This document shows positions 12,597-16,782 of a DNA stretch of 39,429 bases, in pieces; positions within the stretch are counted from its first letter, which is position 1, and each line of letters begins with the position of its first letter. The notes under the pieces are model-generated. The model saw only the letters and a program-made list of their open reading frames with translations. It made no database searches and was not told the origin of the DNA. Source of the DNA: Flammeovirgaceae bacterium (lineage in GTDB: Bacteria; Bacteroidota; Bacteroidia; Cytophagales; Cyclobacteriaceae). The position numbers and the translations under genes are program-made. The stretch spans positions 1-39,429 of the forward strand of contig JAJTGY010000037.1 of NCBI GenBank assembly GCA_021298015.1, read 5' to 3'.

Positions 12597-13703
12597 TCAA
12601 ACCGCTTTTTCAACTTTATCATTCATCACGCGTTGCTGCACCTGAATCGACTCGTAGTGAATGAGCTTGAGTAAATCCGTTACAAAATCCTGACTCAATC
12701 CCATTGCATTACCTTGGGCCAGTCGCGTATTCAGGATTTCATCCCAGCGATTTACCTGAAGAATGGTTACGTTGTTGTCGCGCTTGTAGTGCCCGATTTG
12801 CTCCGAGATTTTCATGCGGGCGCTCATCTTGCCCATGATGTCATCGTCCAGTTGATCGATCTGCTCCCGGAGAATGGTCAGCGTGTCGCGAAACTCTTTA
12901 CTCACCACTTCAGCTTTACGAACAATCAAAGCGTCCAGCATCTTTCCAAAAGCAGCTGGAGTGATTTGTTGCTTGGCATCGCTCCACGCCTGATCGGGTG
13001 TAATGTGGCTCTCCAGCATGATACCCGCCATGTCCAGATCAAGTGCTTTCTGAGCCACAAAGGGCAGCAACTCGCGGTTACCACAGATATGGCTCGGGTC
13101 GCAAATAATCTCCAACTCCGGAAAACGAGTCTTCAATTCAATAGCAAAATCCCACATGGGTGCATTGCGGAATGGTCCCTTATCGAACGAGGAAAAACCG
13201 CGGTGTATGGCAGCCAATGTTCGGATACCTGCGCGGTTGAGTCGTTCCAATGCGCCAATCCAAAGTTCAAGATCCGGGTTTACCGGGTTCTTCACCATCA
13301 CGGGGATGTCCACCCCTTGCAGGGCATCCGCAATTTCCTGAACCGAAAATGGATTGACCGTGGTACGGGCACCCACCCACAGCACGTCCACCCCGGCCTT
13401 AAGGCAGGCCTCCACATGCGCAGCTGTGGCCACCTCGGTGGTAACCGGGATGCCGGTTTCTCTTTTTGCCGCCATCAGCCAGGCTAAGCCGGCCTCCCCT
13501 GCTCCTTCGAACTGACCCGGCCGCGTACGTGGTTTCCAGATGCCGGCTCGCAACAAATGCACCCGATTGAGTGCCTTCAATTGCATTGCCGTAGTTACCG
13601 TTTGATGCTCGGTCTCCGCACTGCATGGGCCGCTGATGATAATGGGGGTTTGAATGCCCAACCAGCCAGCCAAACTATTGGTTTGTAATCCCTTCTTGCT
13701 CAT
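12597..13703 (-). CDS. Bifunctional DAHP synthase / chorismate mutase
   Basis: The N-terminal domain condenses erythrose 4-phosphate and PEP to DAHP, the first step of the shikimate pathway. The C-terminal domain converts chorismate to prephenate. Residues 1-265 form a short DAHP synthase related to KDO8P synthase (type I-beta): SGPCSAE near 24, RAGIWKPRTRP near 52, AIHRGFSSFD near 164 and CDPSHICGNR near 200. Residues 275-360 form an AroQ-type helical chorismate mutase (LREQIDQLDDDIMGKMSARMK onward). The 368-residue length fits this fusion, which is typical of Bacteroidota. The mutase domain is expected to give feedback control by prephenate or its products. The ATG overlaps the tyrA stop by 4 nt (ATGA), implying translational coupling. 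It is the last gene of the aromatic operon. Confidence 0.94.
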   Translation of the reverse strand: MSKKGLQTNSLAGWLGIQTPIIISGPCSAETEHQTVTTAMQLKALNRVHLLRAGIWKPRTRPGQFEGAGEAGLAWLMAAKRETGIPVTTEVATAAHVEACLKAGVDVLWVGARTTVNPFSVQEIADALQGVDIPVMVKNPVNPDLELWIGALERLNRAGIRTLAAIHRGFSSFDKGPFRNAPMWDFAIELKTRFPELEIICDPSHICGNRELLPFVAQKALDLDMAGIMLESHITPDQAWSDAKQQITPAAFGKMLDALIVRKAEVVSKEFRDTLTILREQIDQLDDDIMGKMSARMKISEQIGHYKRDNNVTILQVNRWDEILNTRLAQGNAMGLSQDFVTDLLKLIHYESIQVQQRVMNDKVEKAV

Positions 13704-14599
13704 ACTCTATTCAAAATAACGGTTTTTTCCTTTTGTTGTTTGGTCTTTAATTCAATGCCATCGAGCACGCGCCTGATTTCGTTGGCGCTGCTCAGCATTT
13801 GGTGAAGTTCCTTCACGTCACCTTTCACCAGGTGGTAGTGAAATTTTTGCAGGTGCATGATGTACTCCAGCAACGCCTGGCTCAGGTACCGGGCATTTTG
13901 CTCAAAAATGGGCGCCCACATATCGGGCGAACTCTTGGCGAGGCGAACGGTGGACGAAAAACCGGTGCTGGCCAGCTCAAAAATGTTACGCTCATCTTTT
14001 TCGATGTCCAACACCGTTTGCCCGAGTAAAAAAGAACTCACATGCGAAAGATGTGACACGTAGGCCACGTGGCGGTCATGTTCATCCGCGTCCATATACA
14101 CCGTCTTCATGCCAAGAACAGAAAACACATTCTCGACCCGGGCAAGGGCATCGGCTGCTGAGCGGCTACGCTCACAAATAATGTTCGTCTTTCCCGCAAA
14201 CAATCCGGTAAAAGCCGCACGCGGGCCCGAATTTTCAGTGCCCGCCAGTGGATGGGCAGCCACAAAACGTTCGCGACCGGGATGTTGATCAAGCGCATCG
14301 CAAATCTGCTTCTTGGTTGAACCTACATCAAAAACCACACAGGTGGGCGAAATGCGATTCAGCACATCAGGCAATAGTTGCACCAGTGCCCCGACCGGAA
14401 TGGCCGCGACAATCAGGTCACTCTCAACGGCCAGCCGGTCGACCGTAACACATTCATCAATCAAACCAAGCCGAACAGCCTCTTCACCGGTTTCCTCCAG
14501 CTGGTCGGCACCCAATACCCGGCTGGCCAAGCCTGATTTCTTTAAATCCAAGGCTATGCTGCCACCAATCAACCCAACGCCTATGATACCGAGATTCAT
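13700..14599 (-). CDS. tyrA: Prephenate dehydrogenase
   Basis: This enzyme oxidatively decarboxylates prephenate to 4-hydroxyphenylpyruvate, with NAD(P) as acceptor, on the tyrosine branch. The 299-residue protein starts with a Rossmann fold (GVGLIGGSIALDLKKSG at 7-23). It has FDVGSTKKQ near 90, the substrate-loop motif AAHPLAGTENSG near 114 and the DEHDRHVAYVSHLSH segment near 168, which contains the catalytic and substrate-binding histidines. The C-terminal half is helical, and there is no ACT domain. Both ends overlap neighbours by 4 nt (ATGA at each junction), so its translation is probably coupled to both the aminotransferase and the DAHP synthase. Confidence 0.95.
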   Translation of the reverse strand: MNLGIIGVGLIGGSIALDLKKSGLASRVLGADQLEETGEEAVRLGLIDECVTVDRLAVESDLIVAAIPVGALVQLLPDVLNRISPTCVVFDVGSTKKQICDALDQHPGRERFVAAHPLAGTENSGPRAAFTGLFAGKTNIICERSRSAADALARVENVFSVLGMKTVYMDADEHDRHVAYVSHLSHVSSFLLGQTVLDIEKDERNIFELASTGFSSTVRLAKSSPDMWAPIFEQNARYLSQALLEYIMHLQKFHYHLVKGDVKELHQMLSSANEIRRVLDGIELKTKQQKEKTVILNRV

Positions 14600-15789
14600 C
14601 GTACTTCCACCTTTATCTTTTTTTCCACGAGCGCCTGATGTTGCTGAATGCGTTCAAGCGCAATCTTCATCTGCCCAACCGGGCTGCACAACGAAATGCG
14701 AATATGCCTCGCGCCCTTTGAACCAAAAATGAAACCGGGCGTAATGAAGACATGGGCACCGTAAAGAATTTCATCCACCCACTTTTCCACTTCGGCAATG
14801 CGTTCGTTTACGCGAGCCCAAACAAACAATCCGGATTGATCCAGCGCGTATTGGCAATCCAACTCATCCAATATCTGGTGAGCCACTACCTTTCGTCCGC
14901 GGTATACGTCATTCAGTTCATTGAACCACTCACGGGAGTGCCGAAGTGCTTCGGTGGCCGCCTGCTGCAACCCGAGAAACATGCCGGAGTCCATATTGCT
15001 CTTTACCCGTAAAATGGCATCCAGAAATTCCGGCTTACCGGCCACCCATCCGATGCGCCAGCCTGCCATGTTGTGCGACTTGCTGAGCGAATTCAACTCG
15101 AGCGCAACCTCCTCAGCCCCGGGTATCGACAAGAGACTGAGTGGTGAATCGTTCAGGATCAGGCTGTACGGATTGTCGTTGACGATCAGAAAGTGATGCT
15201 GACGAGCGAGGCTGACAAGTTCTTGCAACTCCTCCGCTCGGGCCACTCGCCCGGTAGGCATGTGAGGAAAATTTACCCACATCAACTTCACACGCGAAAG
15301 ATCCTGCTGGCGTAAGGCATCCAAATCGGGCGCCCAGTTTTGTTGTTCGTCCAGTGCATACGTTCGGATTTTTCCACCGACCAGGTTGGTAACACTGGAA
15401 TAAGTGGGGTAACCAGGGTCTGGTACCAGCACTTCATCGCCTTCATCCACAAACGCCATGGCAATGTGCATAATGCCCTCCTTACTGCCCATCAGGGGTA
15501 GAATTTCCCGTTCAGGGTTCAGGGAAACACCATAGGTGTCTCGGTAAAAAGCCGCGATGGCCTGACGCAGCGCAGGTATGCCTTTGTAGCTTTGGTAGCC
15601 ATGCGTATCCGGAAGGCGTGCAGAATCAATCAACGCATCAATCACGTTTGAGGTGGGGGCAAGATCGGGACTGCCAATGCCGAGGTTAATCACTTTCCGG
15701 CCTTGCGTGTCGAGGGCCCGAACCTCAGCCAACTTGCGACTGAAGTAGTATTCATCTACGCGTGTTATTCGTTTTGCCGTTTGAATCAT
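14596..15789 (-). CDS. Class I PLP aminotransferase (aromatic operon)
   Basis: A fold-type I aminotransferase of 397 residues from the ATG at 15789. The frame extends to a TTG at 15795, which overlaps the pheA stop, and the ATG two bases after that stop is more likely. Its position between pheA and tyrA suggests it transaminates phenylpyruvate and 4-hydroxyphenylpyruvate (or prephenate) in the last step to Phe and Tyr; this is inferred from context. Motifs: GYQSYKG near 65, NDNPYS with the PLP-ring Asp near 205, and SLSKSHNMAGWRIGW with the Schiff-base Lys at about 237. The usual NPTG motif reads NFPHMPTG, so the Asn that normally contacts the PLP ring oxygen is Met (about 177). By family it is close to LL-diaminopimelate and aspartate aminotransferases. 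Confidence 0.92.
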   Translation of the reverse strand: MIQTAKRITRVDEYYFSRKLAEVRALDTQGRKVINLGIGSPDLAPTSNVIDALIDSARLPDTHGYQSYKGIPALRQAIAAFYRDTYGVSLNPEREILPLMGSKEGIMHIAMAFVDEGDEVLVPDPGYPTYSSVTNLVGGKIRTYALDEQQNWAPDLDALRQQDLSRVKLMWVNFPHMPTGRVARAEELQELVSLARQHHFLIVNDNPYSLILNDSPLSLLSIPGAEEVALELNSLSKSHNMAGWRIGWVAGKPEFLDAILRVKSNMDSGMFLGLQQAATEALRHSREWFNELNDVYRGRKVVAHQILDELDCQYALDQSGLFVWARVNERIAEVEKWVDEILYGAHVFITPGFIFGSKGARHIRISLCSPVGQMKIALERIQQHQALVEKKIKVEVR

Positions 15790-15791
15790 GG

Positions 15792-16637
15792 TCAACTGAA
15801 TTGAATGTTAGCTTTTTTGTACTCGCCCAGAATATTGAGGTTGCGCACCTGCCGCAGCACAACTTTCAACGCCTGATCATATTGCTTGCGCTGGCGCCAC
15901 TCCACATCCACATGAATCGAGTACTCGCTGGGTTTTCCAATAATGGGTACAGACTGAATCTTCGTGAGATTGATCTGGTGCTGCTTGAAAATAGTGAGGA
16001 TGTCGGCCAGACTGCCGGCCTCATTTCTTACCTCAAAGCACAGTGTCGCTTTGTTGGCGCCCAAACCGTTGGCCTCCCGGCTCAACATCAGAAAGCGAGT
16101 GAAATTTTTCTTATGAGTCTCAATTCTCCGCTCCAGGATATGCAATCCAAACTTTTTTGCTGCCTGCTCATTGGCCACGGCTGCAGTATCTTTCAGCTTC
16201 TCATCGCGAATGCGCCTGGCAGAAAACGCTGTGTCTTCACTCTCGCGGATGGCCACTCCGGGCAGTGCGTGGAGAAACTCGGCACATTGGCGGATCGCCA
16301 TCGGGTGGGACTCAATTTGCCGGATGTTCTGCATAGCGACACCGGGCAGCGCCATTAAATGCATATGGATGGGCAGATAAAGCTCACCATGGATTGAAAA
16401 ATGGTTTTGTTGCAGCAAAAAGTAATTCGGTAAAATGCTACCCGCGATCGAATTTTCGATTGCCATCACCGCATGATCGGCCTCCCCGCTCTTTAAAGCC
16501 TCGCACAGGCGATGAAACGAAAGGCACTCAACCGTTTCTATTGATTTACCAAAGAATGAGAAGGCTGCTACTTCGTGGAAACTGGTAGCTATGCCCTGAA
16601 TGGCGATGCGCGGCCTGATGTTATTCTTTTTTCCCAT
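15792..16637 (-). CDS. pheA: Prephenate dehydratase
   Basis: This enzyme converts prephenate to phenylpyruvate, the committed step to phenylalanine. From the ATG at 16637 the product has 281 residues: a dehydratase domain (about 8-185, with AIENSIAGS near 59 and HKKNFTRFLML near 174) and a C-terminal ACT domain (about 195-270, NEAGSLADIL). The ACT domain normally binds Phe for feedback inhibition. The usual ESRP motif of the ACT domain reads QSVP here. There is no chorismate mutase domain, which is instead fused to DAHP synthase in this operon. The frame continues to a TTG at 16646 that I reject. The ATG lies 12 nt after the attenuator-like hairpin and downstream of the aromatic leader peptide, so this gene is probably the first to feel attenuation. 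The aminotransferase ATG follows 2 nt after the stop. Confidence 0.94.
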   Translation of the reverse strand: MGKKNNIRPRIAIQGIATSFHEVAAFSFFGKSIETVECLSFHRLCEALKSGEADHAVMAIENSIAGSILPNYFLLQQNHFSIHGELYLPIHMHLMALPGVAMQNIRQIESHPMAIRQCAEFLHALPGVAIRESEDTAFSARRIRDEKLKDTAAVANEQAAKKFGLHILERRIETHKKNFTRFLMLSREANGLGANKATLCFEVRNEAGSLADILTIFKQHQINLTKIQSVPIIGKPSEYSIHVDVEWRQRKQYDQALKVVLRQVRNLNILGEYKKANIQFS

Positions 16638-16649
16638 GGTCTTCAAATG

Positions 16650-16678
16650 AAAATCCCCCGTTTATGGCGGGGGATTTT
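16650..16678 (-). terminator. Attenuator-type terminator hairpin before pheA
   Basis: A perfect 10-bp stem (16669-16678 with 16650-16659, AAAATCCCCC/GGGGGATTTT), extendable by a G:C pair, has a 7-nt loop. In the minus direction it ends in TTTT followed by CATTTG, a moderately U-rich tail. It sits in the 5' leader of pheA, 12 nt before the ATG, and after a leader peptide rich in aromatic codons. That position makes it a conditional (attenuating) terminator rather than the end of an upstream gene. An alternative is translational control of pheA initiation by the same hairpin. Confidence 0.78.
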
Positions 16679-16698
16679 CGACTAGCTTGTTTATCAGT

Positions 16699-16782
16699 TC
16701 AACAAAGCGATGTTCGTTTCAATCCCCCCTGGGCCTGAAAAAAATAATACCAGAAATAAAATCGCTTGTGGTTCATTTTCAT
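16699..16782 (-). CDS. Aromatic leader peptide (attenuation control)
   Basis: A 27-codon frame begins with ATG at 16782 (a second ATG at codon 3) and ends with TGA at 16701-16699. Codons 8-15 read FYFWYYFF: four Phe, three Tyr and one Trp in a row. Charged residues precede this run (HKR) and follow it (KR). Nothing of this kind is expected by chance, and it lies directly upstream of the operon that makes phenylalanine and tyrosine and carries the shared DAHP synthase. By analogy with pheL, trpL and hisL, ribosome stalling here would report low charging of aromatic tRNAs. The peptide itself probably has no function after synthesis. Confidence 0.85.
   Translation of the reverse strand: MKMNHKRFYFWYYFFQAQGGLKRTSLC
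16721..16729 (-). promoter_or_regulatory. Candidate antiterminator arm inside the leader
   Basis: GGGGGGATT in leader codons 18-21 duplicates the 3' arm of the terminator hairpin and can form eight base pairs with its 5' arm (AATCCCCC at 16676-16669). The two pairings are mutually exclusive. A second local stem (16708-16701 with 16691-16685, one bulge) containing the leader stop codon would lie in the loop. An early pairing (16767-16761 with 16711-16705) competes with that second stem. Confidence 0.65.

Follow-up and report, generated by a model that had tools for sequence, protein, structure and literature searches.

Results

The window, that is, the whole 39,429-nucleotide stretch of DNA that was analysed, carries on its minus strand an operon for Phe and Tyr synthesis preceded by a short leader ORF and a hairpin (Table 1). 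The genes for PheA, the aminotransferase, TyrA and DAHP synthase lie on one strand and nearly touch each other, and their Pfam domains confirm the earlier proposal that a Phe/Tyr operon, DAHP synthase included, follows the leader. The 27-codon minus-strand frame described in the first-pass annotation was recovered, with FYFWYYFF as its codons 8-15. It had been placed 62 nt ahead of the operon; the upstream position holds, and the distance is 61 nt by our count, from the end of the leader stop at 16699 to the pheA ATG at 16637. A second in-frame ATG at 16776 (MNHKRF...) occupies the usual start position in relatives, so the peptide may have 25 rather than 27 residues; we think that this ATG, opening a frame of 25 codons, is probably the conserved start.

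Table 1. Leader, RNA elements and operon genes in the window. Sequences of regions 1, 2, 1' and 3 were read from the window and the near-identical locus L002.
Feature	Coordinates	Strand	Description
Leader ORF	16699..16782	-	27 codons + TGA; encodes MKMNHKRFYFWYYFFQAQGGLKRTSLC
Sensor	16738..16761	-	TTT TAT TTC TGG TAT TAT TTT TTT = FYFWYYFF
Region 1	16761..16767	-	AAGCGAT; pairs with region 1'
Region 2	16721..16728	-	GGGGGATT; antiterminator strand within the ORF; identical in sequence to region 4
Region 1'	16705..16711	-	ATCGCTT
Region 3	16669..16676	-	AATCCCCC; common to antiterminator (2:3) and terminator (3:4)
Intrinsic-terminator-like hairpin	16649..16679	-	GAAAATCCCCCG-ccataaa-CGGGGGATTTTC, then ATTTG
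Region 4	16652-16659	-	GGGGGATT; in the 3' arm of the hairpin; repeated in the leader just after the run
pheA	15792..16637	-	prephenate dehydratase + ACT (Pfam); ATG at 16637
Aminotransferase gene	14596..15795	-	class I/II aminotransferase (Pfam)
tyrA	13700..14599	-	prephenate dehydrogenase (Pfam)
DAHP synthase gene	12597..13703	-	DAHP synthase - chorismate mutase fusion (Pfam)

On the other side of the leader a plus-strand ORF begins at about 16902, and thus the hairpin between leader and pheA appears not to serve an upstream gene. A simple promoter and terminator scan detected no terminator at this hairpin, presumably because its T-run lies inside the stem. A degenerate seven-codon pattern matched 73 times on the two strands of the 3.6-Mb genome; as the reversed pattern gave 140, the pattern as such is not enriched. 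Seven-codon runs made up entirely of Phe, Tyr and Trp codons were found by eye in three places, this leader, C32:27115 and C83:783. The last two are not obvious leaders, and a Phe/Tyr/Trp biosynthetic operon was seen only behind 16699-16782.

Conservation of the leader

Related pheA genes were sampled in two sets. The first comprised 69 loci, four of them from distant Pseudoalteromonas, the nearest being 99% identical and labelled Cyclobacteriaceae; for the second, genomes of the same family were searched, with a match in 185 of 196, and 30 loci were taken. The Pseudoalteromonas loci (L067-L070), a truncated locus (L064) the window itself (L001/L071) and duplicates were dropped before 71 distinct upstream regions were counted, a sample of near kin, since most were found through a close pheA. 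A conserved aromatic frame in relatives, on which the first-pass annotation had made its reading depend, was looked for and found: a leader with an aromatic run is present in 68 of the 71 regions. It is absent directly upstream of pheA in L061, L099 and L100, whose pheA is about 50% identical. Locus L063, where our script picked the wrong ORF, does have a leader (MKTHILNSQFFYYFFNPLFGMQGSI) and was left out of the spacing, duplex, folding, codon and post-run counts. Locus L055 was excluded from the codon and post-run residue counts; its run (L055:4845-4978) is shifted by one missing T relative to its near relative L051, perhaps through a real leader loss or an assembly error. The order pheA-aminotransferase-tyrA-DAHP synthase was found in 56 of 62 loci checked, and the other six are loci cut short in which the first two or three genes of that order are visible.

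Beyond near kin, the leader was searched for in other families of the class (which we take to be Bacteroidia). By a measure of six aromatic residues in nine, 19 of 20 upstream regions carry it, and one of 20 does on the antisense strand; these regions come from four families, 15 of them from one. In L122, also within the class, no aromatic leader was found directly upstream of pheA, nor was one in locus L132. Outside the class it was seen in none of 29 pheA loci, 12 of which belong to one family. When genomes of the same family with a more distant pheA were read, a clear leader stood directly upstream in 13 of 40 regions (antisense, 0 of 40), L180 being doubtful and L181 too short to judge. 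In one genus, for which three genomes were fetched at length (L245-L247), the aromatic leader lies about 3.5 kb further upstream of pheA, in front of a longer operon in which DAHP synthase, aroB, aroA and pheA follow one another (genes named by eye). Its lack directly upstream of pheA thus need not mean absence, and to judge from these arrangements the leader can stay at the head of the operon when gene order changes. A covariance-model search gave matches at E<=0.01 in 131 of 295 genomes, many of them weak and not counted as real; of 20 listed matches whose surroundings were inspected, 15 lie at pheA or DAHP-synthase operons with an aromatic leader, two at thr operons (identified by eye) with a Thr/Ile leader, and three show neither.

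In 18 of 64 loci a Bacteroidetes-type promoter box, TAnnTTTG according to a passage of PMC9723704, stands no more than 100 nt from the leader ATG; mononucleotide shuffles gave 3.8. Its position is -25 to -28 in 12 of those 18, so that the RNA would begin close to the leader ATG. The leader upstream region of this window has no perfect match to the box.

Selection on the aromatic codons

In the runs of 66 loci, 526 of 540 codons are aromatic, a figure lifted by the fact that a run ends on aromatic codons by definition. The counts are TTT 237, TTC 45, TAT 108, TAC 115 and TGG 21. Among other T-initial codons, TTG, TAG and TGT do not occur and TGC occurs once, where 11.2, 8.9, 14.4 and 6.7 would be expected. 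In the TG box, TGG was observed 21 times and TGT plus TGC once, against expectations of about 1 and about 21. These expectations assume independent codon positions, and the loci are related, so that the events are not independent. The presence of TGG and the absence of TTG, TAG and TGT therefore indicate that aromatic identity is selected. By contrast with the run, the five residues that follow it are of 53 kinds in 66 loci, and because of this variation we consider that outside the run it is mainly the RNA that is conserved.

Phe and Tyr are present in all 67 scored runs and Trp in 21. The first-pass annotation had the peptide cover all three aromatic amino acids, which is right for this leader and does not hold in general. 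Judged by its codon content, the leader is best described as a putative sensor of Phe and Tyr, with Trp codons added in some cases.

Putative terminator and antiterminator

In 62 of 67 loci a region 2 resembling GGGACTT begins at a distance of 8-11 nt from the last aromatic codon of the run: 10 nt in 31 loci, 9 in 16, 11 in eight and 8 in seven. Rarer spacings are 13 nt (two loci) and 12, 7 and 5 nt (one each). Region 2 lies within the leader ORF in 67 of 67 loci, and the stop ends 2-24 nt beyond it, the exception being L055 (85 nt) with its one-base shift in the run. A hairpin with a T-rich 3' end, T-richness being demanded by our script, follows in 68 of 68 leader loci. CCC occurs after the run in 48 of 66 loci, about 30 being expected after shuffling the zone; this is suggestive of a possible small inner hairpin between the CCC and the GGG of region 2.

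Duplex energies were compared with dinucleotide-preserving shuffles, bulges being allowed. Over 67 loci the 2:3 duplex averages -17.4 kcal/mol, against -9.2 for shuffled sequences and -15.6 for partners swapped between species, and the 1:1' duplex -13.1 kcal/mol, against -7.1 and -9.5. No more than five of 100 shuffles were as good in 63 of 67 loci for 2:3 and in 48 of 67 for 1:1'. An initial test of 1:1', with ungapped pairing and mononucleotide shuffles, had been weak (at most 10 of 200 shuffles as good in 19 of 67 loci), and more than half of the shuffles do as well as the real 1:1' duplex in four of 67 loci (L040, L057, L059 and L066).

Covariation was scored on an alignment of 42 of the 67 sequences, 25 being left out. 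Standard pairs fill 95.8% of cells in helix 3:4, with 30 two-sided changes against a shuffle mean of 7.6; 90.2% in helix 2:3, with 15 against 4.7; and 77.0% in helix 1:1', with 46 against 22.2. The covariation score of each helix was matched by none of 500 shuffles and was lower in six slid registers, bearing in mind that relatedness alone can also lift such scores over shuffles. Neither the tally of covarying pairs nor that of pair types showed an excess over shuffles for 2:3 and 1:1': for 2:3, 226 and 209 of 500 shuffles were as high, and for 1:1', 491 and 496 of 500. As registers differ between lineages, the 1:1' count, made in one register, probably falls short of the true number. Folded whole, the leader does only slightly better than its shuffles (z -1.78).

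Three features expected of an attenuator were found: a short ORF rich in codons for the end products of the operon; an intrinsic terminator, at the sequence level, between leader and first gene; and a mutually exclusive antiterminator that uses the terminator's 5' arm, backed by the shuffle, swap and slide controls and by three of five covariation measures. The terminator and antiterminator, which the first-pass annotation did not mention, are the stronger evidence.

Ribosome positions and folding

For folding, each leader transcript was taken up to and including region 3, and the stretch covered by a ribosome was masked. A ribosome with its A site on the last aromatic codon leads to a predicted 2:3 helix (probability at least 0.5) in 66 of 67 loci. 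A ribosome at the stop, represented by its footprint alone, blocks 2:3 in 34 of 34 short leaders; of the 32 long leaders evaluated, the kind found in the window, 31 could still form it (L055, the 33rd long leader, was left out of this evaluation). When pairing across the ribosome at the stop was disallowed, 2:3 formed in none of 66 evaluated loci. In ribosome-free RNA up to region 3, 2:3 prevails at equilibrium in 47 of 67, so the thermodynamic protection that 1:1' offers is not strong. In these models the "on" geometry is clear, and so is the "off" geometry for short leaders. Because the footprint leaves 2:3 possible in long leaders, their "off" state would need strand separation by the ribosome, or release and refolding.

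Leaders at the his, trp and thr operons

The same genome carries a His leader before hisG (L224, G000:C73; MNNSFSVHGHHHHTLWAGKSVS and a stop) and a Trp leader with WWW before trpE (L223, G000:C71; MKLQVRNNWWWHMSDKLM and a stop), each followed, by eye, by a terminator-like hairpin. Within the class, a leader with at least three His in seven residues precedes hisG in 26 of 29 loci (antisense, 2 of 29). For trpE, at least three Trp in seven are found in 11 of 20 judgeable loci and at least two in 17 of 20 (antisense, 0 of 21). This sample left out partial, weak trpE-type matches (L320-L328) and an hisG fragment (L299). L271 has a His leader, L305 has only 54 bases upstream, too few to judge, and L302 shows no clear leader in its 193 upstream bases.

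At two thr operons (L249 and L251) a Thr/Ile leader beginning MIFNTSIITTIIITTG stands before a hairpin with a T-run. Upstream of the genome's own thrA (L268, G000:C70) there is a possible Thr-containing leader, MYLSRTFFAFIITRYSTTTGWRP and a stop, and no clear hairpin was seen there. The regions upstream of its ilvD and second homoserine dehydrogenase gene gave no convincing leader. At the Rfam gathering threshold, the his (L224), trp (L223) and thr (L251) leaders had no match.

Discussion

We propose that the Phe/Tyr operon is, very probably, controlled by a ribosome-mediated transcription attenuator. The first-pass annotation had suggested leader-peptide attenuation, and the presence of the leader in nearly all near kin together with a covarying terminator and antiterminator strengthens this reading. 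As RNA polymerase makes the leader RNA, a ribosome would translate its aromatic peptide. When charged tRNA-Phe or tRNA-Tyr (here also tRNA-Trp) is scarce, the ribosome would stall on the run, leaving region 2, just 3' of it, free to pair with region 3 once this is made. With 2:3 formed, the 3:4 terminator could not form and the operon would be transcribed. When charged tRNAs are plentiful, the ribosome would reach the stop and mask region 2 or sit between regions 2 and 3; region 3 would then pair with region 4, and transcription would end ahead of pheA. Helix 1:1', inside which the run and region 2 lie, probably represents the ribosome-free state, in which it may help to keep region 2 out of play. 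The ORF, the selection on its aromatic codons, the three covarying helices with their spacing and the linkage to the operon can, on comparative grounds, be taken as established; translation of the leader, for which the codon-level selection speaks indirectly, stalling of the ribosome, the part played by 1:1' and termination in the cell are what we infer.

A hairpin between a leader and a gene could also act on translation, by sequestering the pheA start until ribosome stalling opens it, and in this window just 11 nt separate the end of the hairpin from the pheA ATG. However, the estimated distance from hairpin to gene ranges from -19 nt (a rough or mis-set start) to 175 nt and is at least 40 nt in 16 of 67 loci, which is far for sequestration, and the hairpins have T-rich 3' ends, though our script demanded such ends. 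We therefore consider translational attenuation improbable. Still less credit can be given to a nascent-chain arrest like that of TnaC, in which the peptide itself would stall the ribosome on a free amino acid or another signal. The run is highly conserved as a peptide, as this explanation would have it, but arrest peptides are sequence-specific, whereas here Phe, Tyr and Trp swap at the same positions across species and the post-run residues are variable; moreover, the His and Trp leaders of the same genome fit their own pathways. That a chance ORF merely neighbours an unrelated terminator is hardly credible: aromatic codons are T-rich and short ORFs common, but the leader recurs in 68 of 71 regions, with codon-level selection and covariation, and in other families six-in-nine aromatic windows occur on 19 of 20 sense against one of 20 antisense strands.

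Leader genes have also been described as ribosome "antennas" for reinitiation, with a preferred distance of 11-14 bp in Bacteroidetes, in passages of PMC4833913. We rejected this role for the present leader, as the 61-nt gap does not fit.

Transcription attenuation by a leader peptide is an already known kind of regulation, and the assignment of this leader to it as a conserved member is well supported. The pheL leader of enteric bacteria combines an ORF with Phe codons, a terminator and an antiterminator, with pheA downstream, and the locus studied here shares all of these with pheL and its Rfam family, RF01859. At the gathering threshold Rfam found four tRNAs only in the whole window, and no T-box or other described cis-regulator. 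Below threshold, the best of 4227 families at the leader was RF01859 (Phe_leader), full length and on the right strand; its gathering score of 55 was not reached (25.5 bits, E 0.016-0.027). Several main-helix pairs of RF01859 are unmatched here and, unlike in pheL, Phe and Tyr codons, at times joined by Trp, occur together in the run, and region 2 lies within an additional helix, 1:1'. One leader that senses several end products of its operon is familiar from ilvL and thrL of E. coli; multi-amino-acid sensing is common to these and the present leader, with branched-chain or Thr/Ile codons there and aromatic codons here.

The first-pass annotation could not say whether such a leader had been described in Bacteroidota; something similar has been mentioned there. 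For Flavobacterium psychrophilum, passages of PMC9723704 report "strong clues" that amino-acid operons are attenuated through leader peptides, as well as a structured element 5' of pheA that other genera of Flavobacteriaceae also have. Phylum, gene and the kind of mechanism suggested are the same as here; the peptide, its aromatic run and the anatomy described above do not appear in those passages. In Acholeplasma, the uORFC-13-1 motif upstream of aroF resembles our case in having a leader ORF with one or more Phe codons before a terminator at an aromatic pathway gene, and differs in phylum, in gene and in that only "at least one" Phe is reported for it, according to PMC8632094. Leader-peptide-like sORFs are mentioned for Bacteroides thetaiotaomicron in passages of PMC7366714 that name no amino-acid operon. 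A 2010 survey states, in a passage of PMC2965389, that no leader-peptide system was known to have been shown outside Proteobacteria and Actinobacteria, its exceptions being a his case of its own from Firmicutes and the atypical leader of ermC. We found no description of this peptide or its anatomy in the open-access literature; comparative papers in subscription journals may be missing from that search.

The mRNAs of this group of bacteria naturally lack Shine-Dalgarno sequences, according to the abstract of PMC6847099. We think it likely, though short of certain, that Bacteroidia with such mRNAs run a set of attenuators: for Phe/Tyr, and at times Trp, at pheA, and others at the trp, his and thr operons. 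The pheA leader would be a topological variant, its ribosome-free helix (1:1') enclosing region 2 rather than using region 2 directly.

If this is true, the first ribosome would follow RNA polymerase closely enough to decide termination, despite the unusual translation initiation, and the leaders would offer a direct test of transcription-translation coupling in bacteria without Shine-Dalgarno sequences. Annotators gain small genes that gene callers skip. In summary, a probable attenuator with its full anatomy was traced through several families of one Bacteroidota class, beside his, trp and thr leaders, which suggests how a large environmental and gut-associated group of bacteria may control amino-acid synthesis.
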